Source: Platanthera guangdongensis
Lineage: Eukaryota > Streptophyta > Magnoliopsida > Asparagales > Orchidaceae
Direction of reading: 5' to 3'
Length of the DNA stretch: 64,000 bases
Assembly: GCA_039583875.1 (NCBI GenBank)
Contig: CM077153.1
Coordinates: forward strand, 118,168,568 to 118,232,567
Shown: positions 5,579-60,167 of the stretch, piece by piece
Numbering within the stretch: the first letter of the stretch is position 1
Layout of the letters: each line of letters begins with the position of its first letter
The notes under the pieces: generated by a model
Seen by the model: only the letters and a program-made list of their open reading frames with translations
Told to the model about the DNA's origin: nothing
The model's database searches: none
Translations under genes and position numbers: made by a program

Positions 5579-6142
5579 ATCAGACAGTTAGAGAACTTTC
5601 AAGAACTGACTGGATGACTTGACAGCTGCCATTCCAGCCGGTCTACAGCACCTGTCAGAGTTGTCAGAATTCAGTTATGGACCGGACCAGCCGGTTACCA
5701 TGAAGAAGGCCTACAAATAGGTCTATGCTGTCTACAGAAGTGATTGATCAACAAGTTGTTGAAGAGATTGAACACAAGTCCAAGTTCAGATTTAAAGTAG
5801 ATCTAGCTATCAAGTGAAGATCTAAGAAGTTGGAGAGAGAGAGCTCCATCCAAGAAATCAGCTGTTGGAACCCAGCTGAGAAGAAGGGTTGAGAGTTATT
5901 CTGGATCTTAAGAAGCAGAGATCAAGGATCAAATGCAGAAGGAGTCAGTCTTATTGAGTTCTACTTTCAAGAAGCTTTGAAGAAAGCTAAGTTAGATTGA
6001 TTCCAGCTGAGTTCTTCCAAGAACTCATCAAGAAACTCACAACTCCCCTCTCTAGTCTTTGGGTTGCTGAGTTAACAATTATATAATCATTTTTATCTTG
6101 TAGGATCCTTTGGATCTGAGTTTTGTACGCCTGTAATTATAA

Positions 6143-7385: not shown

Positions 7386-7388
7386 AAG

Positions 7389-7400
7389 TGGTATCAGAGG
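7389..7400 (+). other. Gypsy-A primer binding site, initiator tRNA-Met type
   Basis: TGGTATCAGAGG starts three nucleotides after the LTR end. It matches the standard plant initiator tRNA-Met complement (TGGTATCAGAGC) except for the last base. It would prime minus-strand synthesis. Confidence 0.9.
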
Positions 7401-7550
7401 CAGGTTGAGATTGTTTGGGAGGAAGAACATAATTGAACTCATGAATGTCCACTAGGAATGTATGTCATGCACGTAAGGGGCATGAGTGTGTAGTCAATGT
7501 GTACTTACCATTATGACGTGGTTGATTAATGGTGTTTTGTATATTGCTAG

Positions 7551-9025: not shown

Positions 9026-9061
9026 TGTAACAGCCCAAATTCGAGAAACAGGAAAATAATA

Positions 9062-9635
9062 GGTGACACGGCCTGTGATACGGGCGTGTTCCAGGGTGTG
9101 TCCTGCTTGGGTTGAGTGGTCGAGCGTGTGGTCGACGAATTTCGGTCAACGAATTCTTCGGGAGGTACACGCCCTGTGACACGTCCGCGTCGGGGTGCGT
9201 GACCTAGGGCGTGTCCTCCCCTGGTCGACGATTTTCTCTCGAGTAGTTGAGGTTGACGAATACTCGAGAAAGAGGGTACACGGCTTGTGACACGGGCATG
9301 TCACAGGACGTGTCCCGCTCATACATGAGTAGCTCTCATGTAGGTCGAAATGTACTCGAGTAGGTGGAAAAGTACTCGAGTAGGGGGGGTGACACGGGCG
9401 TGTCATCCCTGTGATACGGGCGTGTCCTATCTGGGTACTCGAGTAGTTGGTTTTCTCTCGAGTAAGTCCTCTCGAGTAGGTCTCAAGTGGGTTACACGCT
9501 CGTGTCACGGGCGTGACTAGGCTGACACGGGAGTGACATGGGCGTGTCACCTTGACGTGGATAAGTTTGGATGAGTCGGTTCATGTACCGCTTAAGGAAC
9601 ATGCCCTGTGACACGGACATGTCACAGGGTGTGTC
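9062..9635. repeat. Inverted-repeat array with core CACGGGCGTG in the Gypsy-A LTR
   Basis: About ten imperfect copies of TGTGACACGGGCGTGTCACA are present (arms TGTGACACG and CGTGTCACA around GG). They are mixed with ACTCGAGTAG-type palindromes and GTCGACGAAT words. Many copies show C-to-T or G-to-A changes in CG steps (ATACGGGCGTG, CACGGGCATG), as expected of methylated DNA. Confidence 0.9.
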
Positions 9636-9718
9636 GAGGCCGAAAGGTGATTTTTCAGAGATTTTGTGGCCATTCATTTCCCTATCCTGAATCCAAGGGC
9701 TGGGCTTTGTCCAGGTGC

Positions 9719-9726
9719 TTATATGG
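9719..9726 (+). promoter_or_regulatory. Gypsy-A LTR TATA box
   Basis: TTATATGG lies about 85 nt downstream of the palindrome array, in a position fitting the U3/R boundary of the LTR. No transcript data are available, so this is a sequence call only. Confidence 0.55.
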
Positions 9727-10611
9727 ACGAGAGCTGAGAGTAATTCCCCTTTATCTTCATCTTCTTCTTCTCCATCTTATTTCCAGAGAGAGGGCAAGGG
9801 AAGGAAGGAGGAAATCTGCTGCTGGAAGAGCTGCGGAGTGTGGATTGAAGATCCGAGTTCGGATTCGTGGAGGCAACGCTTAGACGGTGATTTCCATCCG
9901 GCTGATTCATGGCTCCGAAGTGATCTTCAAGGATAACGATCTCCTTCTTGGACATCGAAGTCCTTGATTTATGCATGTGCATGGAATCCTCCACCAAGAG
10001 GTGGATCTCGGAAGTGATTCCTTGGTTGTGTCTGCATCTAGAGCCGGAAGACCATCTGGATTTAGGGGAGTACGGCATAGGCATGTTGTGTGAAGCCCAT
10101 ATGGACGGGTAGTCTGGATTGGTGATGATCATGGGTAAACTGGAGAAGACTCCATGGATTTGATGCTATGAGATATATACTTTGCTTTGGATTGGATGAC
10201 TAATTGCAGTTGTTGATGCTTGAATTGATTTGCTTGAGCGGAATGGAGGCTTGCTGCTAAAGGCTCTTGAAGGCCGTGCAAAGAAACGTGGTTGGATTTC
10301 ATGTGTGGCCGGCCTGTGTGCCGATGTACAAAAATGTATTTGTGTAAAGAGAAACCTGTAAGGCCTTAACGCCAGTGTGTGTGAGTTGTATACATTCCTG
10401 GTTTGGCTATATAACTGTGGAGTTTATATAGTAGTGGACATTCTCTGAGTTGAGTTCATGTTAACGTAAAATGCTGCGCTAGAATGGATTGAGTTAGGAT
10501 GCGAGTAGATTTTGATTTCCACAAGTAATTCCGCCGCTTGTCCATGACATATGGCGTGGGGCCCCGACCGGACCCACTGTTATATGCCATGTGACGAGTG
10601 GGGGCATTACA

Positions 10612-11130
10612 TTGTGTCTGCCTGTAAGTATCCGGGATGGGTGAGTAATGTTATAATGGTTAAAAAGTGGGAGGGAAATTGGAGAATGTGTGTAGACTTC
10701 TCTCTTTTAAATAAAGCGTGCCCTAAGGATTGTTACCCGCTGCCTCGAATCGAAGCGCTAGTTGACTCAGCCATCGGTTTCTCTCTTATGAGTTTTTTAG
10801 ATGCGTTTTCAAGATATCATCAAATACGCATGCATCCTCCGGATGTTAAGGACGTCACCTTCGTCACGTAGGATGGGTGCATCTGTTTTAATATGATGCC
10901 CTTCGGGTTAAAAAATGCGGGGACAACCTACCAAAGAATGATGGATTGGATCTTCCGAGAGCAGAAATGAAGGAACCTCGAGGTCTATGTGGATGACTTG
11001 ATGATCAAAAGTCGAGACCTAGGATCTCATGTCTTGGACCTTGAAGAAACCTTCAGAACTTTGAGAAAATATTAAATGAGGCTCAACCCCCTCAAATGTG
11101 TTTTTGGAGCCAATATGGGTAAGTTCCTAG
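10612..11130 (+). pseudogene. pol: Gypsy-B reverse transcriptase, first part (Tat lineage)
   Basis: The reading begins abruptly after the Gypsy-A LTR with YPGWVSNVIMVKK. It continues through RMCVDFSLLNKACPKDCYPLPRI, SFLDAFSRYHQIRM, MPFGLKNAGTTYQRMM and the catalytic YVDD (in EVYVDDLMIKS). These are RT motifs of Tat/Athila-type gypsy elements; the Lys-Ala-Cys-Pro-Lys-Asp motif is typical. In-frame stops occur at about 10869 (UAG), 10968 (UGA) and 11074 (UAA). The gene is cut at KFL by Copia-2 and resumes at 23236. The upstream gag, protease and RT start lie outside the window. Confidence 0.9.
11126..11130 (+). repeat. Target site duplication CCTAG of Copia-2 (left copy; right copy 23236-23240)
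   Basis: CCTAG directly precedes the LTR start at 11131 and directly follows the LTR end at 23235. With the element and one copy left out, the Gypsy-B RT frame runs on without a break (KFL then GHLLTPSGVEPNPDK), which proves the insertion site. Confidence 0.96.
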
Positions 11131-18112: not shown

Positions 18113-18376
18113 TGCGCTCGACGATTTCCCCTAAGATTGTCGAATGGAGATCGACGATTTCCAGAATCGTCGAACTGAGTTCAACGCCTCTTAGATAGTA
18201 TGAACTATCTCTTCCGGTCAACGATCGTCGAACGGCGCTCGACGATTATGTTCACTGAACGATCGTCGAACGGAGCTCGATGCCTTCCAAGATCGTCGAA
18301 CGGAGATCGACGATGTTGGAGTCTCTTCAGATTCCTTTAGAAGCCTCGATCGTCGAACTAAGTTCAACGATCTTTC
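18113..18376. repeat. TCGTCGA hairpin array between pol and the last ORF of Copia-2
   Basis: About seven units such as GATCGTCGAACGGCGCTCGACGAT occur between the pol stop (18023) and the TATA box at 18395. They use the same word as the LTR and gag arrays. The stretch has no coding signal. Position and make-up match the GTGTCGACAC array at 933-1262 in Copia-1. Confidence 0.92.
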
Positions 18377-32329: not shown

Positions 32330-33720
32330 CCAGGACACGGGCGTGACCCTTAGGTCACGGTCATGACATGTGGCCGTGACCCATAAAGGAGGTCCAGAGT
32401 ACATGCCACGTCGGATTAAAGTTACACACCTCAGTCACGGGCATGACCTATGGGCCACGGGCATGACTAGTAGGCGTGACTTGCTGATGGTTCTTCAGTT
32501 TCGATGTCAGGCAGTTTTAAAGCTACACGCCCTAGGTCACGGGCGCGATCTTCAGGTCACGAGCATGTCATGCAGGCGTGATGTCCAGACATGCCGCGCT
32601 TGAAGTCGCCAGTTTCAGATTCTGACGGTTCTCGGCTTACACACCCTAGGTCACGGGCGTGAACTAGGGCGTGACTTCCAGCAACAACCAGAATTTACTT
32701 CCCGCCATTTCTCCTTCCCTCCATTTCCAGTAACCGACGTGACACGCCCTAGGTTATGGTTGTGACCTAGGGGCGTAACCCGAAGAACAGCGACTTTTGG
32801 CAGTTTTTCTCCAACGTTCCCGGGCTTTCAAGATATTAGTTTTCGAGCCTTACACGCCCTAAGTCACGGGCGTGACCTAGGGCGTGACCTTCCAGAAATT
32901 TTACTATAAATTCCAGAGAAAGCCAGGAGCTGGGAGAGCATCTAGGGAGCAGAATCTAGGAGTAGTTCAGTAGCTTAGTTTTCTGTTTTTATGCATTTCC
33001 TTTATGTAATTTTCAATTTCATAGTTAGTTAATTTTTATTTCTAGCACTTTTATTTCAAGCTTGTATTTGATTATTTTTACATGTATCCCTCTTTTTACT
33101 AGCACTTGATTTTGACAAGTTTTTGAATAAAAATAATGTTCATTTAGTCAAACTCTTTTATTTTCTTTACTTCGATCTATCTTTGATTTAATTATTTCAG
33201 ACCTTAGTTCTGTATCCTAGAATTACCGAGAGGTTGTGGATACGGTTTGAACGCTCAAAGTTAGAAGGAGCCACATGCACTCCTCGAGAGAGGATGACAC
33301 AGATCTTCCGGATTGGAGTCAAATCCAATAGCGGGGTTCACCGCATAAGGCAAGCTTAGGGGTTTCGACTGGCCGAGAGGTCTTATTCGATCAACCTAAG
33401 TTTAGTCGAGAGTGTATTCTCGAGAGAGGCGCTTTTGTAATTTAGGAACCTTCACGGTCGAAGTAGGTAATTTAGAAGTTTGCTTTTATGAAAAGTTTAT
33501 TTTATTTTAAAGAGAGTCTACATCAAGTGCTATCTTTTATTTTATTTTCTAGCTATAGTTTAATTCACCCGCTAAATTATTATTAGATGAAATAATACTA
33601 ATTCACGTGAGTAGAAGTACTCAACAGGCCCCGAGTCTAATACGACAATTTCTATACTATATTTCGAAAGGTACGTCTGCCTATTTCGAGATTTTAGTTT
33701 GAAATTATTTTTAAAACTAT
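32330..33720 (+). repeat. LTR-like block G: hairpin array, TATA box and leader
   Basis: A block of GTCACGGGCGTGAC-type inverted repeats (32335-32895) is followed within about 10 nt by a TATA box, CTATAAATT at 32904-32912. An AT-rich, leader-like stretch with GAGAG and CGAGAG words comes next, ending near 33720 (TTTCGAAAGGTACGTC at about 33663). The layout is that of a U3-R-U5 LTR. No primer site, partner LTR or target duplication is visible, so element family and borders are open. Confidence 0.5.
32335..32895. repeat. Inverted-repeat array with core CACGGGCGTG in block G
   Basis: About nine units such as CTAGGTCACGGGCGTGACCTAG occur. The arms CTAGGTCACG and CGTGACCTAG around GG are complementary over 10 nt. 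Several units show TCACGGGCATGAC-type changes at CG steps. The 10-nt core is the same as in the Gypsy-A LTR and solo LTR D, but the outer arms differ. Confidence 0.85.
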
Positions 33721-36214: not shown

Positions 36215-37155
36215 AAGCGTCGAGTGAGTCTACTGGACTCGACGAATAGAACAGATTTTTATTCAAAATAATTCTAGAACCTAAAGGTATCGAGTGCATT
36301 GAATGCACTCGATGCCACTCAACAAATTAAGATGAGGCGTTGAGTGGACTTAGCACCACTCAACGAAATTGGACTTAGAATATTTTCTAGATTCAGGGTG
36401 TCGAGTGTGTTGAGTGCACTCGACGCCATTCAGCGAATTATGTTGATCCGTTGAGTGAACTCAACAAAACCCAACGTATTTTACTTAGAATATTTTCTGG
36501 AAGTGAGGCTTTGAGTGAATTCAATGCAGCGTTGATTGGTCTCAATGCCACTCAATGCTTTTAACTTAGAATAATCATGGATACTATTGGTGTTGAGTGG
36601 AGTCAATGTGGAGTTGAGTGGTCTCAACGCCACGAAATGCTTTTAACTTAGAAATATTCTCGATGACTGTTGGCATTGAGTGAAGTCAACGCGGTGTTGA
36701 GTGGTCTCAACGCCACTCAATGCTTTTAACTTGGAATTATTCTGACTGTTGTTGGAGTTGAGTGAATTCAACGTGGCGCTGAGTGGTCTCAACGCCACTC
36801 AACGCTTTTAGCTTAGATTTATTCCGGCTGATGTTGGCGTTGAGTGAAGTCAACGCAACATTGAGTGGTCTCAACACCACTCAATGTTATCCTGGCTAAT
36901 GTTGGCGTTGAGTGAAGTCAATGTGACGTTGAGTGGTCTCAACTCTTTTTTACTTAGAGTTGTTCTGAGGCTTGTAGTCATCAAGTACGTTGAGTTCACT
37001 CGATGCCACTCGACAATTCGTCGAGTGAAAGTTGCTTACTTAACGATTTTTGACTTAGAGTTATTATTTAGGCTTGTAAGCATTGTGTTTGTTGAGTCAA
37101 CTCGATACCACTCGACAATTCATCGAGTAAAGGGGGCACACTCAACGATTTTAAC
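36215..37155. repeat. GTTGAGTGG...CCACTCAAC hairpin array in LTR F
   Basis: About ten units of GTTGAGTGGTCTCAACGCCACTCAA type occur, at roughly 90-nt spacing, often followed by TTTTAACTTAGA. The arms GTTGAGTGG and CCACTCAAC enclose 8 nt; the inner GTTGAG and CTCAAC can also pair. At the edges the word changes towards TCGAGTG/CACTCGA. No CACGGGCGTG core is present, although D, the relative of F, has it. Confidence 0.9.
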
Positions 37156-37335
37156 TTAGTGCATTTTTGGCTCATTCTGCTTGCTGCCACATGCACGGTC
37201 TGAGCCGAAATTTCAGGATGGGCGCCAAATGACTTAAATTGGATGCATCAATTCAAAAGGACATATTTAATGTAATAATTGGTGGTCCATTGTTAGGACG
37301 ACACGTGGCGGGGCAACCTAACCCTAATTTCTCAA

Positions 37336-39290: not shown

Positions 39291-39391
39291 CTCATCTTAT
39301 AAGTTTGTATGGGAACTCTTATGTGATGAGTTACTTTATTGTTAAGCCAATCCTTAACTTTTATGTCTGTATGGGATTCATATAAGTTAAG
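39291..39391 (+). other. Two stem-loops with GTATGGGA loops in LTR F
   Basis: Hairpin 1 has CTCATCTTATAAG (39291-39303) pairing with CTTATGTGATGAG (39318-39330) around TTTGTATGGGAACT. Hairpin 2 has CTTAACTTTTATG (39353-39365) pairing with CATATAAGTTAAG (39379-39391) around TCTGTATGGGATT. Both stems hold apart from one or two mismatches. LTR D has both hairpins at the same place with altered stems that still pair. Confidence 0.7.
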
Positions 39392-39851
39392 TTACTTCAT
39401 GTGATATATTCATACTTGTACACTGCTGTTGATAGTAGAACTGCTAGTATATATTGGTGTAGTTGCCTTGATATACTCTGATATAGTTTAACACTTTGCC
39501 ACTTGTTTTGTACTACAACTATTATATATATTGTACCCTCTTATTTTCTGTCTGGTACCTAAGAGTCGCCTGGGGAGCGGATGTGATAGCCATTTAGTCT
39601 TTATGACTAACAGTTGATATGTCTTCCTTTTTAGGAGGAAACCCCGCAGATAAAGCGGCAGCAGATTATGCAGGAGGGCAGCCAGGCCAGGGCGATAGGG
39701 CCTGATGTGATGGTACCATCGCTACCATTTGTGCCTGATGTTAGTTTTTGAGGGACTCAGTTTGTATCCTTTTGGCATTTCATATATACTCTGATATTAT
39801 AGAAGGCTCGATTGCTTCTTTTATTTCTTTTACTAATTGGACATTATATAC

Positions 39852-45398: not shown

Positions 45399-45403
45399 TT
45401 ATG

Positions 45404-48143
45404 TGTAAGACCCCCTCCCGGATCCCAAAACACGGCACGAAGGGGATCTTATGCCCAGAACAGTCGCCTTGCGGTAGCATTAGCACACGGGCTAACCTGT
45501 ACCACAAGACGCCTATTCAGCCGGCTACAACCAATATCAATATATGCCAACCCAACAAAAATGTAAACTAGAAGTCAAATCCACACAAATCATAATAGTC
45601 CAAAGTACATAAAAATAGAGAAGCTACAACAAGCTTCTACAAAGTATCAGAGTACAACTAACATATGCCCAAAAGAGCTACATCAAATCGCTCAACAAAA
45701 CTCACATCGGTAACCGACGGTAGCGACGACACCGTCCCTTCAGGACTAGTCGTCCTGGGCTGGCTGTCCTGCTGCAAAGTCTGCGTCTCCTCTACCTGTG
45801 GGGTGACCTCCTGAAAATGAAGACGTATCAACTGTTAGTCAAAAGACTAAGTGGCTATCACATCCGCTCCCCTGGCGACTCCTCGGCATTGGGCGGAGAA
45901 AGGACAAGGGTACAATATATAATAAGTGATTTAAGCAGGTACAGGCAGGTGGAATAAGTACAATATGATTAACAACATTTTATCTAGCAGTTCTACATGA
46001 GGTATAACAATCCATCAAGTATAAGTAACTACAGCAGGAAAGTAACTTAACTTATAAGGATGCTCATACAAGCTTATAAGTTAAGGATCGGTTTAACATA
46101 AAGTAACTCATCGTCTAGGAGTGCCTATACAAACTTATACGATGAGGATCTTGTTTGTTCAATGTAATGAAATGGTATGTATGCTATGCAATGACTCACC
46201 CATGATCACACACATGCAAATGCTATGTCGACACAGACTAGTAGTTCCCACTTTTCGAGTAGGTAGCTAACCTCTCAGGCATCAACCGTTGTGGCCAGGC
46301 GGCGATAGTAGAGCGGGCTACTCTACTACTAAACGGGCATCCACACTGCTTCACTTAGGCCTCCGTACACCTCAATGCTAAGAACATAACAGCGAAGCCC
46401 CCCTTCACGTACTATTGTCTTGCGGGATTCTTGGGTAGATGTGCACCGAGAACCAAGCACCGAACTGGCCTTGTGTGACCTGTAAGGATCCTCAGAAGAA
46501 AGCACGAGGACCAAGCCTAACTGTTCACTTAGCACGGAAGGAGCCCCGTGACATGAACACCGAGGACCAAGCCCAACCGCCCAAGGTCTAATTGTCAACT
46601 CCCGTCGGTGTGACGACTGGCGACCCCGTAGACCTGCCACACTATCCTTAACCCGGGATTACGACACCGCATGTCGACTCACACCGCATGCAATTCCATA
46701 TCATCGTGGCATAGAAGGAGCCTCAGAGAAAACACGAGGACCAAGCCCAACAGTCCACTTATAACTCATCTCAACACTAACCAACTCAGTGCGATCAACA
46801 CTCGCACTTACACCCTTTCACAGTGCTACCCGTAGGGAGATGCCACTCTAAGCATTGGACTACTAAATTCATTCAGTTAAACAATCATTCATATGGCCAT
46901 AGATTATCATCCTATATTTCATTCCAAACGATTTCAACACATTATTGACAAGATGCACATTTCTATTAGTTTATCAATTTCTATCGAATCATTTCGTTTA
47001 AGTACGCTTCACTTCACAAATCAATTACATAGGATCCTATAATTAAACTTCATCATTCATAAATCTATGATGGTTAACATAAAATACTTCACCAAACCTC
47101 AAGTTAATTTGCTACATTATCTCCACCGAGTCCAAATCCGACTCTACTCCAACCCAGAATTTTAAGTATAGAAATAATCTGGACATCAACTTCAACCAGA
47201 GATTTCCCAAGCTACAGAATTCGGTGAAGGCGTGTAACCCCTCGATGGAAAGCTCTTTCCATGGGCTACAACTTTCATGTTTATATGACAACCCAGATCC
47301 GAGAGTATCATATTAGAAATCGGCTTCAAAGTCCGCTACGTACAGAACACAGTTTCTGCATGCTTGGTTTGTCAGCCGTCAAATTCATTCAGACTTTCCT
47401 ATGGCTACATACTTTGCCCGAAGTCGTGCAACCACTCGTTGGAAAGGAATTTTCAAGGGCTTCGACTTTTGTGTTTAGTCAAAAGCCCAGTTCTGAACAT
47501 ATCACACCTGAAAATGGCCAAGAAGGTTACTGCGTGCAGAACACAGATTCTGCTCGCATCTTAAGGCGGAATGAACGACATCAGTTCATCTTCCTCCTCA
47601 AGTCGATCTTCCAAAATTACCTCCGGAAATTCCTCCTCCCTTATTCACCCTCATGAGGCCATTTCTCTTCACGAAACCATCCCCCATTTTCACATAGAAG
47701 GTTGGAGAGGTTGAAGACACCACTATCCTTAGGGCACAAGCCCTAGAATGGCCTCTACCTAGGGAAATCATCATCTCGCAAGTCTAGACTCTTTTGAGTC
47801 GACATCTCACCTGGATATATCTACAGATCTAGCACCAAGGGAGAGGGGAGGAAGCTCACCTCATTTCCGGCGTTTCCGCCATTTCCGGCTAAGGATCTTG
47901 TAACTCTTCACGGCGGCATCTTCTTCTCCTCGACGGCGGCGGTTCTTCTCCTCTTGGACTTGCTCCAGCAGATTCTCCCTCTCTACAGTAGTTTCTCCAG
48001 GAAGAAGGGTTGGAATGAGGAGTGAAAACGGATAGGGTTTTCACATCCCATATAAGTGAAAAGTGACACGGGCAGGGACACGCCCGTGTCCTTACCCATA
48101 TCCTGCTTGGGTGAAGCGTTACAGGCGGTTACCTGACGTTCCG
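45404..48143 (-). mobile_element. Solo LTR D, left part (3' half in its own orientation)
   Basis: D is bounded by TTATG at 45399-45403 and 60163-60167. Its ends are TGTAACGTCCCG (60162, reading -) and GGGGGTCTTACA (45404). Without Gypsy-E it is about 3.4 kb and holds no gag or pol, so it is a solo LTR. This left part has a TATA box (CTTATATGGG, 48056-48047 on the - strand) and the downstream LTR half shared with F. One hairpin unit of the upstream array remains at about 48066-48095. Confidence 0.88.
46046..46146 (-). other. Two stem-loops with GTATGAG/GTATAGG loops in LTR D
   Basis: One stem is perfect over 13 bp: CTTAACTTATAAG (46046-46058) and CTTATAAGTTAAG (46073-46085). Its loop reads CTTGTATGAGCATC in the sense of D. 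The other pairs 46107-46119 with 46134-46146 (CTCATCGT with ACGATGAG, then partial), around a loop holding TTTGTATAGGCACT. They correspond to the two hairpins of LTR F at 39291-39391, with base changes on both sides of the stems. Confidence 0.7.
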
Positions 48144-51094
48144 TGTCACAACCCGCATTTTTCTCCGAATTCATGGAGTATCAGAGTATGAGAAAAAACA
48201 CGCGTCGTGATGCCACATCGAGCAGGGGATAACTGTCGACGCTCAGGCGAACACCATCTAACAAGACTATGAAAGTTTCTTAAGTTTAATGATTAGAAAA
48301 TCAGATATCTTTTAGAGGCCGCATCCCTCGGCTCAGTGGATCATCTAGTCCACAGTTTAAAACTATATTTATACGTAGCGGAAAATACTTTATTTATTGC
48401 TTTGACATCCTAAGAGAGTGCATAAGTGACCCCCGGGGTCAGTTTATACTATGCAAGACACTAAATTTATATCATATTATAAGTAGGGAAAACGTTCTTT
48501 TTACGTTACTTGGGAAGTAGTGTATGAGTTTATAAAATATGCTGATCATGAGATATATATATAGTAGTGTTTTAGGTTTAAAAGTAACTAATAACCTAGC
48601 ATAAAATTTCCCAAGAACAAGTAGACTATCGCCAAAAAAGGTAGCAGTAAAAGAAACATATTTAGTATCATAAGTTAAAACTACCAGAGGGCGCCAACAA
48701 ACTGACACGAACCCACTGACAAGTATGTATGTCTGTAAGAAAAAGCAGGAAAACTACCTCACAAAAGTAAGAGAAAGATCCCTACATCTCAAGGGATCAC
48801 CACCAACAACACAGCAAATCTAGCCGCCCACCCGGCTACTAATCAGAACCAGAGGCATTCAGAAAAGGAAAGAATTCCTCAGCAAGCGAAACAAGAAAAT
48901 CTGAACTATGACATTAAATTTCAATGGAATAAGAGAGTAAGTAAACAAGACAGTAAAAAGCAAACACTGTCCAGAGTAAACCAAAAGTACACAAAACACC
49001 AAGCAATAACATCAAGCCCTGCTCAAATCCTACAGTGGCTACAAGGCAAAAGGCAAAGAAAAACTTGCCACCATATGCTGCATTCTACCAGGAAGAAACA
49101 CCTAACAATCCTAATTTGTGAGTTAATGACAGTGGTAAACAGTAATGGTCCTTGGTTGGTGACCAAAAATAGTCCCCCAAACAAACAGTTCCAACAAAAT
49201 CATAAGTTTCCACTGTCGGCACAAAACCACCACAAATCCAGCTCGTACCTGGAATAAAAAGGGTGGCGGCCACAGCAAATGCCCAGCCCGTACCCGGGAC
49301 CAAAAAAACGTGGCGGCCACGGCTCGCACACAAAACATCCCGCTCCTTTAGAGCGTCAAAACACCACTACCTGCCATAACCCACGATTCGGCCCTCAAAA
49401 TAAAGGAAGAATGAAAGGCCAACAAGACATTTACCCTAGGAGGTAATCACTCGGGAAGAAAGATAATTGAAAAGAAATAAAAATTCTGCCTACAGGAATC
49501 GTCGAACGCAGCTTGACGATTTTCATCGAGCGCTGGAACAAAATCGCCGAATGAAGCAAAATCGTCGAGCGCAACTCGACGATTTTCGTCGAATCACGGG
49601 ACACAGGCAATCGTCGAACTCCATTCAACGATTTCCCTTTCGCCTAACATAGGTCACGGGAAAAATCGTCGAACTCCGTTCGACGATTTTCCGATAAACG
49701 TAGGCCAAGGGAAAAACAGACCACGTGGAAATTATCGTCGAACGCCGTTCGACGATTTTTCCCTTCGTCGAACAGAGGTCACGGGAAAGTCGTCGAACTC
49801 CGTTCGACGATTTCCGTCAGACCCAGAACTAAGGCTTGTCGTCGAGCTCAGTTCGACGATAATCTACGAACCCAGATCGACGATTTCCGTCGATCTGGCT
49901 GCAATGAGTGCACAGTAATTATGAACCTCCTACTTCGTTTCCGTCCAACTTCTTAGCCTAATTCAAACCTATTATTGGCGATTTAAGTATAAAATCTCAA
50001 TGTTATTGGATTCTAGGGTTGAAAGGCTAATGTCTAACCAAATAGAGGTTTTAACAGGGAACCATTTGAATGATTAACAGGAAACAGTTTGATAAAACAA
50101 ACAAGGTTACAACACTCCAGCCAAAGGCATGAGTTTTAGAACTTGAGAGAATGCAAACAGAAACTTAAGGGGGCATTATGGTTAATGATTTACATGCTTT
50201 TGACGGAAAAACATAGTAAGATATCAATCTCAGGAAAACAGGGAAAATTATAGCAATTATGACCATAAATAGGAGAAGAAAACTTGGCAAGGGCAAGAGC
50301 ACCACTTGCCTCAAATCCAAAGATTAACTCGCACAGCCCTTCCTCTCTCTCTCGGCTCCAGCCGTAACAGCACCTAAACAGGATCTAAGGTTTTAATGGA
50401 GGAAAAGGTTCAAACCAAAAATATTGAGTTCTCTAAAAACACCACGAAAATTGAATCGCTTACCTTAGGAATGAAGGTCTAGGCGAGAGCACTCCAAATC
50501 CGCTTTCGAAATCGAATTCCATCAACTATCGCTCCCAAAATCAGCGTCTAAAGGGTACAGGGTTGACGGTTTTCTTCCTCTCGATCAGGCAGCGGTTTCT
50601 CTCTCACAGAAGGAGACAATGAATAGTCTCGTTTATTTCTTAAGGCTATATATATGATGCATGGATACGTCTTTTCAACCTAACTGCCACCTAAAACCAC
50701 TCATTTCAAACTTTATAAATTAATTAATCATTACATCCATTATTATTAACACACCAAAACGACGCAAAAATCGAACCACCTCAGAATCCGACGAAATTCG
50801 CACCGTAGTTAAACACCCACACTACGAACGCAACGACGAAGTCGAAATCAACATTCGATGAACAAAACTCGGGTTATCACTACCCTAAGCCAAAACACAA
50901 GCATCCCCCGAGAGGCCTCACCGGTCACCAAAACAGACCCGGCTTGCTAGGAGATCTTGCCAAAAAGGCTACCAATAGCCATACAAGGAACCAAAAGAGC
51001 TAAGACCATGCTCTAACAAACAACACATGCCGGAAATGCGTCAATGTAACGCCAAACGAGAATTAAATAATCGCAGAAAATCGGGGGCGTTGCA
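48144..51094 (-). repeat. Gypsy-E 3' LTR
   Basis: In the sense of the element it starts TGCAACGCCCCC at 51094 and ends GGGTTGTGACA at 48144, giving 2951 bp. It has a TATATATAG box near 50650 and a hairpin array at 49496-49885 that lies downstream of this box. The purine tract AGGGGGAGTGAC (51106-51095) precedes it. Confidence 0.94.
49496..49885. repeat. TCGTCGA hairpin array in the Gypsy-E 3' LTR
   Basis: Eight or so units occur, such as AATCGTCGAA-CTCCG-TTCGACGATT (arms of 10 nt). In several the pairing extends into flanking GGAAAA/TTTTCC. The matching array in the 5' LTR is at 57922-58312. The word is the same as in Copia-2 and Copia-3, which belong to another superfamily. Confidence 0.92.
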
Positions 51095-51202
51095 GTCACT
51101 CCCCCTAAAAGAAAGTTTCGTCCCGAAACTTTATATACGCTACTTCTACAATAGAAGGAAAGTAACAAACAAGAGTACTAGAAAGAAAACGTACCAAACA
51201 AA

Positions 51203-52408
51203 TCAAAGGAAAAGATTAGGGTGGGCCTCCCTCATAGCCGACTCTAACTCCCAAGTCGCGCTTTCCAAATCCTGATTCTTCCATAGAACTTTCACCATCG
51301 GGATAGACTTCGTCCGCAGCACCCGATCTTGAGTATCCAAGATGCGGACCGACACCTCAACATATGAGAGATTAGGCTCCAACTGGGGCACAACATCCAA
51401 GACTTGCCCACTGCTTTGCACACACTTCCACAATTGGCTTACATGAAACACATTATGAATACCTGGGAAATTTGCTGGCAAATCCAATCTATATGCTGAC
51501 ACGCCAATCCGTTCAACAATCTTAAATGGGCCCACATACCTCGGATCCAATTTCCCATTCTTACCGAACTTCTTAACACCAACCATTGGGGAAACCTTAA
51601 GAAACACAAGGTCCCCTACAGAAAACTCCAAGTCAGACCTACGTCGGTTGCCGTTCTTCTCATATCTCTCCTGAGTAATACGAAGCTTTTCATGAATAAG
51701 CTTCACAGCAGTTTCCATCTCCTCGAGCGCATTCGGACCCAACATAGGCCTCTCACAAACCTCGGTCCAAAACAAGGGAGTTCTGCAGCGCCTCCCATAC
51801 AAGGCTTCAAATGGAGCCATTTGCAAGCTCTCCTGGTAACTGTTATTGTAAGCGAATTCCATAAGCCGCAAACGCTCATCCCACACTCCTCCGTGGTCCA
51901 AGATGTAGCACCTGATCATATCCTCAACTATCTGGTTCACTCGCTCAGTCTGACCATTGGTCTGCGGGTTGTAAGCTGTAGAATACCTCAAATCTGTACC
52001 CAAATCCTCTTGCAGACTCCTCCAGAAGTGAGATGTAAAACGGGAGTCTTGATCCGAAATGATGCTAACTGGTACCCCGTGCAATCTGATGACCTCATTC
52101 AAATACAGCTCCGCTATCTTTTTCATCGGATAATCAATCTTATATGGCACAAAGTGAGCACACTTCGTCAGTCTGTCCACTATAACCCAAACAGAATCAA
52201 AACCTCTAGGAGATCTCGGCAAGCCCGTAATGAAGTCCATAGAAATACTCTCCCACTTCCAAGTAGGGATCTCCAACGGAGTCAACTTGCCACCAGGCCT
52301 TCCATGATCGGCCTTCACACGCTTGCAAGTGTGGCACTCAGCAACAAATCGGGCTATATCACCGTTCATCCCATACCACCAGGCAATCTGCTTCAATTCA
52401 TGATACAT
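51203..52408 (-). CDS. pol: Gypsy-E integrase with C-terminal chromodomain-like region
   Basis: This 401-codon open frame starts within the integrase zinc domain ([33 protein letters not shown]). The catalytic core follows, with [26 protein letters not shown] and [13 protein letters not shown], which carry the D, D and E residues. The gypsy GPY/F-type segment comes next ([12 protein letters not shown]). The last 50 residues ([41 protein letters not shown]) resemble the chromodomain found at the end of chromovirus integrases, which steers insertion to marked chromatin. The stop is at 51205-51203. The frame differs from that of the RNase H upstream, so a frameshift lies near 52400. Confidence 0.93.
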
Positions 52409-54002
52409 CTTTGTGGATCCTGGATGGTAGGCACACTAGATCCATGAGCCTCTCTGCAAATCATAACCCTGATGTCTCCAACAGCGGGAATGCAGAACCT
52501 GCCGCGGTACTTCAAAGTACCCGCATCATCAATAGAGAAATCCGACAACTCCCCTCTCTCAGTCCTGAGGTACAAGTGCAGAAGATCCGGATCATCCTTC
52601 TGGTGAAACCTGGTAAGTGCAATCCAAGACGGCTCTGCCACTGCCAAACTGCTCTGCAAGTCACAGCGTCCCACGAAAATATCCAACTTGAGGAATTCTT
52701 CCACTAAACGATCGGCGGTGAGATTAAAGATCTTCCCCGTCTTCCAGCTCAGGGCATCGACAACTATATTGGCCTTGCCCGGATGATACTGTATATCCAC
52801 ATGATAATCGGCCACATACTCTAACCAACGCCGCTGGCGCAAATTCAGCTCTTTCTGGGTGAAGACATACTTGAGGCTTTTATGATCGGTGAAGATCTTG
52901 CACTGAGCACCATAAAGTAAATGTCTCCACAACTTCAGGGAAAAGATCACTGCCGGGAACTCAAGATCATGCGTAGGGTAGTTCCTCTCATGAATCTTCA
53001 GTTACCTCGACCCATACGCAATAACCTTCGCTTCTTGCATCAACACACCTCCGAGCCCAACATGCGAGGCATCCACATACACATCATAGTCCATGCCCTC
53101 CGTAGGCAATGCCAAAACAGGAGCAGAACACATCCTGCTTTCCAGCTCCTGAAAAACCTCCTCGCATTTCTCGCTCCAAATGAACGCCGCATTCTTCTGT
53201 GTCAGCTTAGTCAAGGGTGCTGCCAGTGCAGAAAATCCCTCCACGAATCTTCTATAATAGCCGGCCAACCCCCAGAAGCTCCTAATCTCCTTGGGTGTGC
53301 TCGGCCTATGCCAATCCATCAGTGCAGAAATCTTTTCCGGGTCAACCGAAATGCCGTCTTTGTTCACCACATGACCCAGGAAGGAAACCTGGGACAACCA
53401 GAATTCACCTTTACTCAGTTTGGCGAATAACTGATGGTCTCTCAAAGCAGATAGAATCAATCGCAGATGCTGCTCATGCTCCTCAGCACTGCGTGAGTAG
53501 ATCAACACATCATCAATGAATACCACAATGAACTTGTCCAGAAAATCCTTGAACACCCGGTTCATCATGTCCATGAATGCTGATGGCGCGTTGGTCAAAC
53601 CAAACGACATAACCAAAAATTCAAAATGCCCATGTCTCGACCTGAAAGCAGTCCGTGGAATGTCCGACTCACGGATCCTAAGCTGATGATAGCCGAACGA
53701 AGATAAATCTTGGAGAACACCGTGCTACCATGCAACTGATCAAATAAATCATCGATCCTCGGTAGAGGGTACCTGTTCTTTATGGTAACTTTGTTCAGCT
53801 CCCTATAGTCGATGCATAGCCTCATCGACCCATCCTTCTTCTTCACAAATAGAACAGGAGCACCCCAAGGCGACGAACTCGGCCTAATAAAACCTTTAGC
53901 CAACAACTCGTCCAATTGGACTCGCAACTCCTCCAACTCACGAGGGGCCATCCGGTAAGGCGCCTTAGCAATAGGATGCGTACCCGATTCCAAATCAATC
54001 AC
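52393..54002 (-). pseudogene. pol: Gypsy-E reverse transcriptase and RNase H, frameshifted
   Basis: The RT starts [20 protein letters not shown] and includes [19 protein letters not shown]. After a frameshift near 53640-53600 it continues as [21 protein letters not shown], then [13 protein letters not shown] with the catalytic FIDD intact, and [16 protein letters not shown]. RNase H follows: [19 protein letters not shown], a UAA at about 52999, [20 protein letters not shown] and [13 protein letters not shown]. The end contains the spacer towards integrase ([21 protein letters not shown]). The family is gypsy chromovirus by order of domains and wording. Confidence 0.92.
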
Positions 54003-54550
54003 AAACTCAACATCCCGCTCGGGGGGGGGAGACTAGGAAGGTTATCAGGAAAAACATCAGAGAAACCACGAACCACGGGAATCTCCTCCAGGCGCGGTAT
54101 GCTAACTGTAGTCCCAACCACCGAGACTAAACAAGCAAAACAATCAGAATGAAACAGCTTCTGAGCACATACCGCAGAAATGATAGGAAAATCCTGGCAC
54201 GAATCAGCATACACACTTCCAGGCTGACCGTTATCCTTGATGAAGTCCAAGCGCTTCCCTTTGGACTGAATAACCGCATCATACCTAGACAATCAGTCCA
54301 TGCCCAGAATAACGTCGAAGTCCTCTAGATCAATCATCTTCAAGTCTGCCTTCGCAAGAAAGTCCCCCAACAAAACAGGGCAATCCAAAATGCCCATATC
54401 TGACAAAACAGATTCACCAGAAGGGAACTTGATGCGGAAGGTATCACAAACTTGATCTAGAATCAACCGATACCGCTCTACAAAGGCTCTAGCTACAAAT
54501 GAGTGGGTATCGCCAGAGTCGAATAAAACACGCGCCCAGCGGTTCTTCAC
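54003..54550 (-). pseudogene. pol: Gypsy-E protease region
   Basis: The frame reads VLFDSGDTHSFVARAFVER, in which the usual DSGATHSF has a Gly-Asp change. It runs through ILDCPVLLGDFLAKADLKM and ILGMD, then a UGA where relatives have Trp, then LSRYDAVI and the linker [21 protein letters not shown] run of nine G (on the + strand, at about 54021-54030) marks a frameshift into the RT frame. A spacer of about 100 nt without coding sense separates it from gag. Confidence 0.88.
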
Positions 54551-54648
54551 CTTAAATTTCCCTATAGGAGTACATAAGCAACTAATGCACTACCAGAACA
54601 AAACTAAAACCCTGCTAGCAAATAAAACTTTCAAGCTAGGAAAAACGA

Positions 54649-55878
54649 CTAACCTGAGATGACCTCAGTCGAAGTCTGAGCCTCCTCGGAAGAGATCACG
54701 TTAAGCTTCCCTTTGCCATTGTCCACACGCTGAGGCGGAGGTAAAGCCTGAAGTGGAACTGCCTGAAGAATAGGCTGGATCTGAGGACACGTAGCCTTGA
54801 TATGGCCCTTCTGGCCACACTGAAAGCAGACCTTATCCTTGGACCAGCACTGGGCAGCATCATGCCCGAGTCGCTTGCAAACAACACAGGAAACATCCCT
54901 CCTAGGAGCACCTTGAATGGCATGAACTTGCTCCTTGCTCTGAGCTCCCGCCTTCTTGAAACACCTCTCAACAGGGTTGCCTGACCGGCCACAGAAGCTA
55001 CACACTACCCGGCTCTTCTTTCCTGAAGCAACATCAAGTACCTGGGGGTTCTTCTCCTCAGCAGACTTTCTCTTGTCCTTCCTCATTTGCTGGCCTCTGC
55101 TCTTAGCGGTCTCAATTGCCTCCACTTTCAAAGCAGCCTCCACAACTCCTACATAAGTCACTGATCCATAAGCACTGGCTAACTGCTGAACCTCGCTCCT
55201 CAAGCTACCAAGGAACCGCTTGACTCGATCTGCTTCAACACTCACCAACCCAGGGGCAAACCTGCTCAACTTGCTGAACTCTATCTCGTACTCACTGACC
55301 GTGAGTTGTCTCTACTTCAGGTGAAGGAAGTCGTTCATAAGTCGGTCACGCTCGACCGAAGGCAAGCACTTCCTCAACAGCATCTCCTTGAACAATGTCC
55401 AAGAGCAACCAGCCACCAAGCTCTCCTTTTCCCTAAGCCACCAGCTCTTAGCCAAACCCTTTAGCTGATAGACGGCTATCATCACTCTCTGATCATCTGC
55501 CACACCGGAGTACGAGAACATCTCCTCCATGGAGATCAGCCAATCATCTATGACCATGAAATCTGCCTTCACATCATATGTAGGAGGGATAAGTCTCTAA
55601 AACTGAGAAATGAAGGCCATCTCCGCTGGCACCACCACTGGAGGCCTCATGGGAGTAGGAGGGGGAGGGGCAGCTGAACCCCCTACAGGGTCTTGCACTC
55701 CATGAGTCTGTCCCGCCTCAACTACCGCCAGAGACTGGATCTGGACCTGCATCTCCACCAACTGCCTGGTCAGGGAATCATTGCTCAATCGCAAGCTCTC
55801 GATCACCACATCACTCTGCGCTCCAGAAGTCTCACCCTCAGACAGGCGTGTCGATCTCGTCGAAGGACGTCTCGCCAT
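54649..55878 (-). pseudogene. gag: Gypsy-E gag with two in-frame UAG stops
   Basis: One frame runs from the ATG at 55878 (MARRPSTRSTRLSEGE) to 54649, about 409 codons, with UAG at 55599-55597 and at 55314-55312. The gag domain is clear (DDWLISMEEMFSYSGVADDQ, QLKGLAKSWW, LFKEMLLRKCLP, VSEYEIEFSKLSRFAP, VKRFLGSLRSEV). It is followed by a Lys-rich part and zinc knuckles: CVVCKRLGHDAAQC and CFQCGQKGHIKATC are complete CCHC motifs, and CSFCGRSGNPVERC is a variant. Two to three knuckles are common in this group. The N-terminal part before the first stop is a coiled-coil-like, Pro-rich leader. Confidence 0.93.
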
Positions 55879-56192
55879 CCTAAAATCATATCAACATTAG
55901 CCAAATCCTGGTACAATAGTTGGAACTAACTACAAGTACAGATAATACATACATAAATATGATCTTAAAACTGCTAAACTTGCTCTGGGAGTTTATTTGA
56001 ACCAAAAATGATGTTATGCCTAACCTAGGATGGTTAACCACCACCGTCTAACTCTTGTGCCTAGATCGGGAATGCATGAATTTATATTCTTTTTTTTTCT
56101 GATTTAAAACCATGTGTGTACATATGTCATCCTGCAAGTCTTTAACTTGGCACGTTGTGCTTATGCAATGTTATGCTATGCATGATTGTGCT

Positions 56193-56410
56193 ATGCATTC
56201 TAAAAAGGCCCTAATGCATGTCATGGGCGGCATACACATGAAAATGTTATCCATCCCATACTACATAACATTCTCATGCAACGAAAAGAAATGTGCTAGT
56301 CGCATTCATGTGGTGAGGTTATGCATCTCATACTACATAACCCTCACATGTTGCCCCTATGGTGGATCCATATACAGACACATATTATGCATCCCATACT
56401 ACATAATATG
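56193..56410 (-). other. Stem-loop cluster with a shared loop in the Gypsy-E leader
   Basis: Three stem-loops lie between primer site and gag. Pairs are 56237-56250 with 56265-56278, 56307-56322 with 56337-56350, and 56382-56389 with 56402-56409 (+ strand limits). All have a 14-nt loop that reads GTAGTATGGGATGC or a one-base variant in the sense of the element, while the stems differ. In stem 1 the only imperfect pair is G-U when read as the element RNA. A further hairpin, ATGCATT with AATGCAT (56193-56199 and 56213-56219), has another loop. The rest of the leader (55879-56192) shows no feature. Confidence 0.72.
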
Positions 56411-56555
56411 CCCCGTATACTTCATGTTATGCCATGAGTGTAGTGTTCGTGCTTCAGCCAAGACGTGCTGATGACATACCGGTGTGTGTATGATATGATG
56501 CTAAACTCCTAATACCTATAAGGAAAGGTTGCCCGACAAATTGTCAAGCAACCTC

Positions 56556-56567
56556 CCTCTGATACCA
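56556..56567 (-). other. Gypsy-E primer binding site
   Basis: On the - strand TGGTATCAGAGG begins two nucleotides after the 5' LTR end. It is the initiator tRNA-Met complement except for the last base, and this fixes the orientation of the element. Confidence 0.93.
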
Positions 56568-56569
56568 AC

Positions 56570-59491
56570 TGTCACAACCCGCATTTTTCTCCGAATTCAT
56601 GGAGTATCAGAGTATGAGAAAAACACGCGTCGTGATGCCACGTTGAGCAGGGGATAATTGTCGACGCTCAGGCGAACACCATCTAACAAGACTATGAAAG
56701 TTTCTTAAGTTTAATGATTAGAAAATCAGATATCTTTTAGAGGCCGTATCCCTCGGCTCAGTGGATCATCTAGTCCACAGTTTAAAACTATATTTATACG
56801 CAGCGGAAAATACTTTATTTATTGCTTTGACATCCTAAGAGAGTGCATAAGTGACCCCCGTGGTTAGTTTATACTATGCAAGACACTAAATTTATATCAT
56901 ATTATAAGTAGGGAAAACGTTCTTTTTACGTTACTTGGGAAGTAGTGTATGAGTTTATAAAACATGCTGATCATGAGATATACATATAGTAGTGTTTTAG
57001 GTTTAAAAGTAACTAGCAACCTAGCATAAAATTTCCCAAGAACAAGTAGACTATCTCCAGAAAAGTTAGCAGTAAAAGAAACATATTTAGTATCATAAGG
57101 TAAAACTACCAGAGGGTGCCAACAAACTGACACGAACCCACTGGCAAGTATGTATGTCTGTAAGAAAAAGAAGGAAAACTACCTCACAAAAGTAAGAGAA
57201 AGATCACTACAACTCAAGGGATCACCAGCAACACCACAGCAAATTTAGCCGCCCACCCGGCTACTAATCAAAACCTGAGGCATTCAGAAAAGGAAAGAAT
57301 TCCTCAGCAAGCGAAACAAGAAAATCTGAACTATGGCATTAAATTTCAATGGAATAAGAGAGTAAGTAAGCAAGACAGTAAAAAGCAAACACTGTCCAGA
57401 GTAAACCAAAAGTACACCAAACACCAAGCAACAACATCAAGCCCTGCTAAAATCCTGCAGTGGCTACAAGGCAAAAGGCAAAGAAAAACTTGCCACCATA
57501 TGCTGCATTCTACCAGGAAGAAACACCTAACAATCCTAATTTGTGAGTTAATGACAGTAGTAAACAGTAATGCTCCTGAGTTGGTGACCAAAAACAGTCC
57601 CCCAAACAAACAGTTTCAACAAAAGCATAAGTTTTCACTATCGGCACAAAACCACCACAAATCCAGCCCGTACCTGGAATAAAATGGGTGGCGGCCACAA
57701 CAAATGTCCAGCCCATACCCGAGACCAAAAAAAAAGTGGCGGCCACAGCTCACACACAAAACATCCCGCTCCTTTACAGCGTCAAAACACCACTACCTGC
57801 CATAACCAACGATTCGGCCCTCAAAACAAAGGAAGAACGAAAGGCCGACAAGATATTTCCCCTAGGAGGTAATCACTCGGGAAGAAAGATAATTGAAAGG
57901 AAATAAAAATTTTGCCTACAGGAATCGTCGAACGCAGCTCGACGATTTTCGTCGAGCGCAGGAACAAAATCGCCGAACGAAGCAAAATCGTCGAGCGCAG
58001 CTCGACGATTTTCGTTGAATCATGGGCCACGGGCAATCGTCGAACTCCGTTCAACGATTTCCCTTTCACCGAATGAAGGTCACGGGAAAAATCGTCGAAC
58101 TCCGTTCGATTACTTTCCGATAAATGCAGGTCAAGGGAAAAACAGACCACGGGGAAAGTATTGTCGAACGCCGTTCGATGTTTTTTTCCCTTCGTCGAAC
58201 AGAGGTCACTGGAAAATCATCGAACTCCATTTGACGATTTCCGTTAGACCCAGAACTAAGGCTCGTCGTCGAGTTCCGCTCGACGATAATCGACGAACCC
58301 AGATCGACGATTTCCTTCGATCTGGCTACAATGAGTGCACAGTAATTCTGAACCTCCTACTTCGTTTCCGTCCAACTTCTTAGCCTAATTCAAACCTATT
58401 ACTGGCGATTTAAGTATAAAATCTCACTGTTATTGGATTCTAGGGTTGAAAGGCTAATGTCTACCCAAACAGAGGTTTTAACAGTGAACCATTTGAATGA
58501 TTAACAGGAAACAGTTTGATAAAACAGACAAGGTTACAGCACTCCAGCCAAAGGCATAAGTTTTAGAACTTGAGAGAATGCAAACAGAAACTTAAAGGGG
58601 CATTATGGTTAATGATTTACATGCTTTTGACGGAAAAACATAGTAAGATATCAATCTCAGGAAAACAGGGAGAAGAAAACTTGGCAAGCGCAGGACCACC
58701 ACTTGCCTCAAATCCAGAGATTAACTCGCACAACCCTTCCTCTCTCTCTCGGCTCCAGCCGCAACAGCACCTAAACAGTATCTAAGGTTTTAATGGCGGA
58801 AAAGGTTCAAAACAAAAATTCTGAGTCCTCTAAAAACACCACGAAAATTGAATCTCTTACCTTAGGAATGAAGGTCTAGGCGAGAGCACTCCAAATCCGC
58901 TTTCAGAATCGAATTCCGTCCACTATCGCTCCCAAAATCAGCGTCTGAAGGGTATAGGGTTGACGGTTTTCTTCCTCTCGATCAGGCAGCGGTTTCTCTC
59001 TCATAGAAGGAGACAATGAATAGTCTCGTTTATCTCTTAAGGCTATATATATGATGCATGGATACGTCTTTTCAACCTAACTGCCACCTAAAACCACTCA
59101 TTTCAAACTTTTTAAATTAATTAATCATTACATCTATTATTATTAACACACCAAAATGACGCAAAAACCGAACCACCTCGGAATCCGACGAAATTCACAT
59201 CGTAGTTAAACACCCACGCTACGAACGCAATGACGAAGTCGAAATCAACTTTCGACGAACAAAACTCAGGTTATCACTACCCTAAGCCAAAACACAAGCA
59301 TCCCCCGAGAGGCCTCACCAGTCACTAAAATAGACCCGGCTTGCTAGAAGATCTTGCCAAAAAGACTACCGATAACCATACAAGGAACCAAAAGAGCTAA
59401 GACCATGCTCTAACAAACGGCACATGTCGGAAACGCATCAACGTAATGCCAAACGAGAATTAAATAATCACAGAAAATCGGTGGCGTTACA
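56570..59491 (-). repeat. Gypsy-E 5' LTR
   Basis: In the sense of the element it starts TGTAACGCCACC at 59491 and ends GGGTTGTGACA at 56570, giving 2922 bp. A TATATATAG box is near 59048. The hairpin array (57922-58312) lies 730 to 1130 nt after this box, thus inside the transcribed part if this box is used. It is a direct repeat of 48144-51094. Confidence 0.94.
57922..58312. repeat. TCGTCGA hairpin array in the Gypsy-E 5' LTR
   Basis: This is the counterpart of 49496-49885. It has the same units, with several single-base differences, mostly at CG steps (for example TTCGATTACTT against TTCGACGATTT). Confidence 0.9.
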
Positions 59492-59496
59492 TTCCG

Positions 59497-60162
59497 ATAC
59501 ACAAACATGGGTAGGGACACGCCCGTGTCCCTACCCGTGTCCACATGATACGGCCGTGTTCTCTGGTCGTGTCCTCCTCTAGACACGCCTCGTCGAGCTC
59601 AACTCGACATACACGGGTAGGGACACGCCCGTGTATCTACCCGTATCCTTCTCGGGGTACACTTCGTCGATCTCAACTCAACGCACATGGGTAGGGACAC
59701 GCCCGTGTCTCTACCTGTTTCATCTTCACACGGTAGTGACACGCCCGTGTCACTACCTGTTTCCTTCTCTGGGACAACTCGAGTCATCGACTCAAGAGTT
59801 GGTTGGATAGACACGGGTAGGGACACACCCGTGTCTCTACCCATGTCCTTCACGGGAATAGTGGTTTTGCTTACACGGGTAGGGGCATACCGTGTCCCTA
59901 CCGTGCCATTATGCACACGGGTAGTGACACGCCCGTGTCACTACCCGCGTCCTTCTCTGGACATACTCGAGTCATCTACTCGAGAGTTGGCCTCTCCCAC
60001 ACAGGTAGGGACACGCCCGTGTCTCTACCTGTGTCCTATTCTGTACTGATTTCTCCTCCAATTTTCAAGTGCATCCCTGTTGCCAGCACTTCCCTGAACC
60101 CAAGTCAGCTCTCCTGACTCAAAAATGCGCACAAAGGTCCTGGTGTGAATCGGGACGTTACA
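59497..60162 (-). mobile_element. Solo LTR D, right part (5' part in its own orientation) with hairpin array
   Basis: This part starts (in the sense of D) with TGTAACGTCCCG at 60162. Eight hairpin units lie between about 59505 and 60040. The best has 13-nt arms GGGTAGGGACACG and CGTGTCCCTACCC around CC, and its inner core is CACGGGCGTG read on the - strand. ACTCGAGT-type palindromes lie between units. No gene is present. Confidence 0.88.
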
Positions 60163-60167
60163 TTATG

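Follow-up and report, generated by a model that had tools for sequence, protein, structure and literature searches.

Tandem palindromic units with a shared core and covarying arms in promoter-proximal LTR arrays of the orchid Platanthera guangdongensis

We have found that a 10-nt word, CACGGGCGTG, is the core of tandem palindromic units in three LTRs that share no detectable similarity outside these units. The LTRs lie in a window of 64 kb (the whole stretch of DNA that was analysed), which is made of nested LTR retrotransposons. The units carry CACG half-sites on a 12-bp lattice, and their outer arms, in a wider sample of the genome, covary beyond what is expected from the composition of the arrays. 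We read the units, with about even confidence, as promoter-proximal U3 regulatory boxes of dyad DNA sites whose arms are kept complementary by selection and/or template-switch copying.

The window contains 22 matches to the core (at most one mismatch) against 0.84 expected, and 100 shuffles of the window never gave more than four. The matches are at 9079-9546 in element A, at 32336-32874 in block G and at 59518-60021 (minus strand) in solo LTR D, with one more at 48079; the array of element A has an additional decayed unit at 9604-9629. The first-pass annotation had proposed one core for three unrelated LTRs, and this was confirmed: with the units masked, clades A, G and D show no mutual similarity (E<=1e-4, same strand). 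The features are as follows.

9026..10616 (right end approximate), plus strand: 3′ LTR of Ty3/gypsy element A, with its TGTAACA start at 9026
9072..9640, plus strand: U3 array of CACGGGCGTG units in A, with TATATGG downstream at 9720
32330..32890, plus strand: block G array of CACGGGCGTG units with CTAGGT/ACCTAG-like arms; TATAAAT at 32905, 30 bp downstream
36286..37159, plus strand: U3 array of CGTTGAGT/ACTCAACG dyad words in LTR D2, the downstream part of which is a relative of D
45404..60162, minus strand: solo LTR D, 3,406 bp of its own (45404-48143 and 59497-60162), with TG...CA ends, split by element E
48060..48100, minus strand: further D unit (core 48079) left of the nested insertion, followed by TATATGG at 48048-48054 on the minus strand
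48144..59491, minus strand: nested Ty3/gypsy element E, with LTRs 48144-51097 and 56570-59491
59505..60045, minus strand: U3 array of D, with CACGGGCGTG cores at 59518, 59624, 59698, 59740, 59824, 59928 and 60012 and a degenerate unit near 59886
59716..60040, minus strand: module duplication of ~188 bp in D, which unites the TAGTGA units 59740 and 59928 and their neighbours 59824 and 60012

Solo LTR D had been placed at 59497..60162 only; it proved to be larger, since it also spans 45404-48143, with the unit at 48079, and is split by E. The 5-bp target duplication TTATG flanks D at 45399-45403 and 60163-60167, and TTCCG flanks E at 48139-48143 and 59492-59496. D itself sits inside a copia pol gene (homology at 62868-60160 and 45402-44799). 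Among the three core-bearing LTRs the Ty3/gypsy assignment covers A only, by its gag gene at 7486-8445 (Retrotrans_gag, E=3.3e-12, Ty3-type), while G and D are unclassified LTRs. The best of the three proteins found for the A gag comes from another orchid, Platanthera zijinensis (76% of the query aligned, 50% identity). The LTR repeats of A are 6565-7385 versus 9787-10611, at 93%, and 7151-7390 versus 10377-10616. The 5′ LTR of A is cut at ~6565 (6562-6565), which is why the matching U3 array is missing on that side; the sequence preceding the cut matches sampled stretches L132, L136, L138 and L140, which are rich in another word, GTGTCGACAC. The palindromes CTCGAG and ACTCGAGTA occur as spacer words in both U3 arrays, at 9340-9480 in A and at 59964-59985 in D. 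Elsewhere in the window, at 25764-27332, an 86-bp unit is repeated in tandem (18.3 copies, 88% matches).

LTR D2 (about 36.1-40 kb) is 77% identical to D over 37532-37989 and 73% over 38739-39847, and for its array region no match to D was reported in the comparison. D2 and D are thus related downstream of the promoter and differ in the words of their arrays, so the palindromic form may outlast the word. In the aligned spacers of sampled arrays L142b and L146, too, one dyad word seems, by eye, to have been swapped for another.

To see the core beyond the window we used 28 stretches, each of 10 kb, from this assembly: 20 are evenly spaced along one 184-Mb contig and one comes from each of eight other contigs. 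With the window they make up a 344-kb sample. The exact core is present in 9 of the 28 stretches and GTGTCGACAC in 14. The sample holds 78 core matches in 15 groups, two of which are the two parts of D and one a lone opposite-strand core within the L146 array. The motif is many-copy within one LTR: D has seven cores plus the one left of the insertion, and there are 5-11 core matches each in A, G and six sampled arrays. Masking the units leaves a clade A of A, L127, L128, L133, L139, L142a, L142b and L146 (L151 joined via L133 only), a clade G of G and L152, and D and L131 each alone, with no match between clade A, clade G, D and L131 (E<=1e-4, same strand). A scan of the window and the first 20 stretches (264 kb) for 10-mers present in at least six of these 21 stretches, against a second-order Markov expectation, ranked GTGTCGACAC, CACGCCCGTG, ACGATCGTCG and words overlapping the first two as the 11 most enriched. 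The enriched 10-mers are mostly pieces of dyads; perfect palindromes account for 3 of the 60 in the top list.

The architecture of the unit is strict. Pairs of the form ACACG-Nk-CGTGT number 48 at k=2, 68 at k=14 and 25 at k=26, against 5, 9, 1 and 6 at the off-lattice lengths 13, 15, 25 and 27 (21 in total); k=11, 22 and 24 give 1, 3 and 6 (10 in total), and the remaining values of k within 0 to 30 give none. CACG-N8-CACG occurs 37 times on the strand read. The half-site spacing of 2+12n thus defines the unit as CACG-N8-CACG-GG-CGTG-N8′-CGTG. When three related arrays (L133, L142b and L146) are compared in pairs, cores are 94.3% identical, half-sites 95.5%, arms 87.8% and the remaining sequence 79.1%. 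Cores were located by a pattern in L146, which biases their identity upward, and the remaining sequence takes in further dyad words as well as DNA outside the array.

In A and D the array follows the LTR start and precedes a TATA-like box; in G, too, a TATA-like box follows the array. For 14 of 15 rows of the sample the main strand has either TGTAAC, the word that starts the LTR, upstream of the cores or a TATA-like word after them, in a scan whose TATA-like patterns include two added after the sequences had been seen. None of these TATA-like patterns occurs within 400 bp in L128, L133, L142a and L151, and beside A, G, L128, L131 and L142a the other strand has TATA-like words as well. The seven CACGGGCGTG arrays measured have a CpG observed/expected ratio of 0.93-1.30 versus 0.64 for the 344-kb sample, and are island-like by this ratio alone. 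Where the units lie, how their half-sites are fixed and how these are spaced all favour a DNA site for a dimeric or multimeric protein. Of the readings offered in the first-pass annotation, the paired protein-binding site would fit best, judging from half-site spacing and from conservation in the one trio of arrays.

The same annotation had described family-specific, self-complementary arms around the core, which holds broadly, with one mispair each in G units 32652 and 32865 within CTAGGT/ACCTAG. For D it had contrasted two arm types. The units at about 59731 and 59917 (cores 59740 and 59928) do read TAGTGACAC paired with GTGTCACTA. The alternative pairing of TAGGGACAC with GTGTCCCTA is complete in unit 59518, while the units at 59624, 59698, 59824, 60012 and 48079 carry mispairs, so that 59518, 59740 and 59928 are the only D units fully paired over the inner eight arm positions. 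The mispair is one-sided at arm pair 3 in 59624, 59698, 59824 and 60012, with 59624 mispaired at pair 2 as well; in unit 48079 pair 4 is mispaired, also one-sidedly, and pair 6 is a G-T.

The annotation had taken the two-sided change in D as evidence of covariation, and here we disagree with that conclusion: it is what tandem duplication gives, an outcome that the annotation itself had named as a refutation. The two segments with TAGTGA units are identical at 112 of 132 aligned positions, the highest among the six pairings of four D segments (the remaining five have 75-89 of 99-114 identical). A spacer common to both TAGTGA units is absent beside the other D units, and the one-sided neighbour unit was duplicated along with them; a self-BLAST aligns 59505-59849 with 59685-60037 at 72%. 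The TAGTGA units are therefore paralogues of one ~188-bp module duplication, and the paired change inside D is one event. Swapping right arms among the five distinct D units, a test of low power, gives no significant covariation (P=722/3000).

The wider sample gives a different result. Canonical units were defined, blind to the arms, as the 37 of 78 matches with both outer half-sites at the 12-bp spacing (at most one mismatch). Over arm positions 1-7 of these units 214 of 259 positions are in Watson-Crick pairs, while exchanging right arms between units of an array gives 199.7 (0 of 5000 swaps reached the observed value); for the 29 units with unique arms the figures are 160 of 203 against 150.3 (6/5000), and at arm position 3 alone 19 of 29 against 11.4 (2/5000). 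An ungapped alignment of 30 distinct units (the core counted in removing duplicates, clades mixed) has 83.8% of arm cells in standard pairs, G-U included, against 66.2% after shuffling; with the partner offset by one, two or three columns the figure does not exceed 53.8%. Two-sided changes occur at all seven arm pairs in this alignment, against 4.9 in shuffles (seven reached in 17 of 500), and in 32 cells against 10.0 (0/500). Clade A alone, with arrays pooled, has 94 of 119 positions paired against 83.7 (3/10000), from 17 distinct arm pairs among 28 canonical units and 57 matches. With bulges allowed, the score over the 78 matches is 4.24 for own arms and 3.35 after swapping within arrays (0/3000); over 64 distinct pairs it is 3.76 against 3.06 (0/3000). 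When units were grouped by single-linkage clustering, 66 of the 78 chained into one of 10 types, and with one member per type own arms score 2.82 versus 1.96 for swapped ones, with overlapping ranges.

These controls preserve the composition of arrays, and the statistics ignore the relatedness of units. The covariation is significant but based on few independent events: clade A contributes five paired two-sided states, in four kinds of unit, and D adds one. Of the 33 cells of clade A that differ from the commonest arm pair (ungapped, 17 distinct arm pairs), 8 are paired and 25 unpaired, some of the latter belonging to units that pair with a bulge. The proposal that arms change together through selection or a copying process thus stands in part, for the sample covaries within arrays and across clades, but many changes are one-sided. 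A copying process acting on the arms is plausible, and some unit types may have spread between positions via exchange. At arm pair 3 the paired alternatives among the 37 canonical units, some of them related, are five T-A, four C-G and one A-T, mostly double transversions with no wobble step from the common pair, as template switching in one step would give. One unit, 5712 of L128, shows two adjacent two-sided changes.

Arm covariation in arrays of transposable elements does not by itself prove RNA structure. Still, transcripts of the array might fold into short stem-loops with a role in the element RNA itself or in the supply of hairpin-derived small RNAs and in silencing, an interpretation that we hold to be possible, if on the unlikely side. 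The D array folds far better than its shuffles (z of -11.8 sense and -15.6 antisense), the arms covary, and 46 of the 47 exact cores lie on the main strand of their array, which looks transcribed in 14 of 15 rows; a small-RNA excess over palindromic regions of Sireviruses is also described in the accessible text of PMC10760457 and PMC5311732. Any DNA palindrome, however, also folds as RNA, and no Rfam family matched the window at gathering scores. On the core strand of the 37 units, with pair 8 omitted, the mispairs are 15 G-U, 18 A-C and 26 other, so that the asymmetry expected of sense-strand selection is absent; this, together with the better folding of the D antisense strand, argues against selection on the sense transcript, and the sense RNA hairpin of the first-pass annotation is not favoured. 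Nor do the double transversions at pair 3 follow a G-U route, and stem-loops are not needed for a 12-bp half-site lattice or for fixed words such as GTGTCGACAC with non-complementary flanks.

A mutational origin without function, in which template switching and unequal exchange create and spread inverted repeats and dyads in U3, appears unlikely to us. Whole modules are duplicated in D (~188 bp), and arm types differ, by eye, at aligned positions of L133, L142b and L146, as exchange of units could give. A single template switch can make or repair a stem (PMC8794818), and template switching can homogenise the arms of inverted repeats (PMC8604942). Against a purely mutational origin stand the strict half-site spacing, the same core in LTR clades with no detectable similarity, and cores and half-sites at 94-95% versus 79% in the rest, with an upward bias from a core pattern taken from one array. 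A last reading, that the arms do not covary, that D holds a duplicated ancestral variant and that the shared core reflects common descent of a U3 fragment, is very improbable. The duplication part of that account does hold for the D array by itself, and the controls keep array composition and not unit relatedness, but the sample shows covariation within arrays and within clade A.

Two further dyad words bear on the protein-site reading. GTGTCGACAC is exact in 299 of its 439 array copies (at most three mismatches). The flanks of the exact copies have C on the left in 2 of 299 and G on the right in 0 of 299; extended arm complementarity around the word is absent, with flank pairing at or below shuffles. 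Symmetric double changes were seen in 6 of 36 two-mismatch copies, two of them complementary, with no clear excess. Successive copies of the word less than 80 bp apart are spaced 18-22 bp in 148 of 275 cases. The dyad TCGTCGA-Nk-TCGACGA, in copia LTRs and in the LTRs of gypsy element E, occurs 31 times with k=7 and once each with k=16 and 17, and at no other k from 0 to 24, N6 and N8 included. Judged by sequence, GTGTCGACAC and TCGTCGA-N7-TCGACGA thus appear to behave as fixed dyad sites in the same U3 style. In the window the GTGTCGACAC and TCGTCGA arrays are in or beside copia elements. Dense GTGTCGACAC arrays stand at 933-1261, between the end of a copia pol (3-896) and two long ORFs, and at 4716-5587, on the far side of those ORFs; Sirevirus boxes are described in similar linker and LTR positions. 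TCGTCGA-N7-TCGACGA is found at 11300-11520, 14422-14625, 18225-18320, 21887-22042, 49558-49898 and 57925-58290, in copia and gypsy elements and mostly in LTRs.

Correction of arms after insertion was considered and set aside on these words, which differ from CACGGGCGTG. The LTR pair of E has 10 one-sided and 0 two-sided changes in 56 pairs of TCGTCGA-type dyads, that is, one-sided decay after insertion, and a copia LTR pair has 1 one-sided and 0 two-sided changes in 50 dyad pairs. By analogy, whatever keeps the arms of CACGGGCGTG units paired probably acts in the active lineage.

Returning to regulatory dyad sites in U3, we propose that the tandem CACG half-site dyads would be sites for a putative dimeric or multimeric host DNA-binding protein which, once bound, would drive transcription of the element. 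The units would be maintained only while the element lineage is active, because copies losing them would stop transposing. The arms between half-sites would be free in sequence while their complementarity tends to persist; the likeliest cause would be one-step copying of an arm via template switching in the inverted repeat during element replication, alongside which selection would keep workable dyads. While position, spacing, conservation of core and half-sites (in one trio) and arm covariation are direct observations, and one-sided decay after insertion is observed for another dyad word, it is from these that we infer the host protein, its effect on transcription and the template switching. 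Two causes, selection and template-switch copying, may both contribute to arm complementarity. Against our reading, covariation over 7-8 bp per side is not expected for a simple dimer site, and a frequent G-G mispair at pair 8 (15 of 37 units) is not expected from a copying process. More tentatively, and against our own leaning, different LTR superfamilies of this genome might share a small dyad vocabulary (CACG-GG-CGTG, GTGTCGACAC, TCGTCGA-N7-TCGACGA and CGTTGAGT/ACTCAACG) of constant half-sites and spacing, placed in U3 arrays, with arms re-copied by template switching during the replication of each element. If true, the palindromes would be a self-templating, host-read promoter code in which words swap and dyad symmetry stays.

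The closest known systems are palindromes of other LTR elements. The accessible text of Bousios et al. 2010 (PMC2829016) describes, in 13 Ty1/copia Sireviruses, high-copy palindromic RM boxes upstream of the LTR TATA box, with a CGG-CCG core in 12 of 13; it calls them absent from classic copia elements, and reports a conserved symmetric core with further symmetric sequence that differs, CpG islands, and boxes that are nearly identical in elements with otherwise very little homology. In kind, therefore, symmetric arms that differ between elements around a common core are already known. By that description the CACGGGCGTG arrays resemble RM boxes in being many-copy within the LTR, before a TATA-like box and CpG-rich; unlike them they have a CACG-GG-CGTG core, belong to a Ty3/gypsy element (A) and to unclassified LTRs (G and D), and have half-sites placed on a 12-bp lattice and arms tested for covariation. 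A 2016 Genome Research study, as relayed in the available parts of PMC10760457 and PMC5311732, reports clusters of regulatory palindromes in LTRs with strong predicted structure and rapid evolution, and a hairpin-derived role (RNA, small RNA or silencing) has been proposed for maize Sirevirus palindromes. There the element family and the words are other ones and small RNAs were mapped, whereas our analysis is of sequence only. One palindrome common to copia elements and Helitrons (PMC10760457, in its accessible part) is a precedent for sharing across groups of transposable elements.

In the open-licence literature, no retrotransposon paper, by title, was among the matches listed for CACGGGCGTG, GTGTCGACAC or 12-14-base extensions of the core. 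Nor did any paper listed by topic deal with arms that covary, judged by title and the start of the abstract; this word, its exact spacing and the paired changes look new. Template-switch mutation is described, for RNA genes and for DNA replication, as creating and maintaining hairpins (Monttinen and Loytynoja 2022, PMC8794818), and would explain simultaneous changes on both sides of a stem; LTR arrays and reverse transcription are an extension beyond that work. Our results add a Ty3/gypsy LTR and two unclassified LTR clades to the Sireviruses as carriers of promoter palindromes, give the unit an exact architecture and make the origin of the paired changes testable as pairing selection, protein-site selection or template-switch copying.
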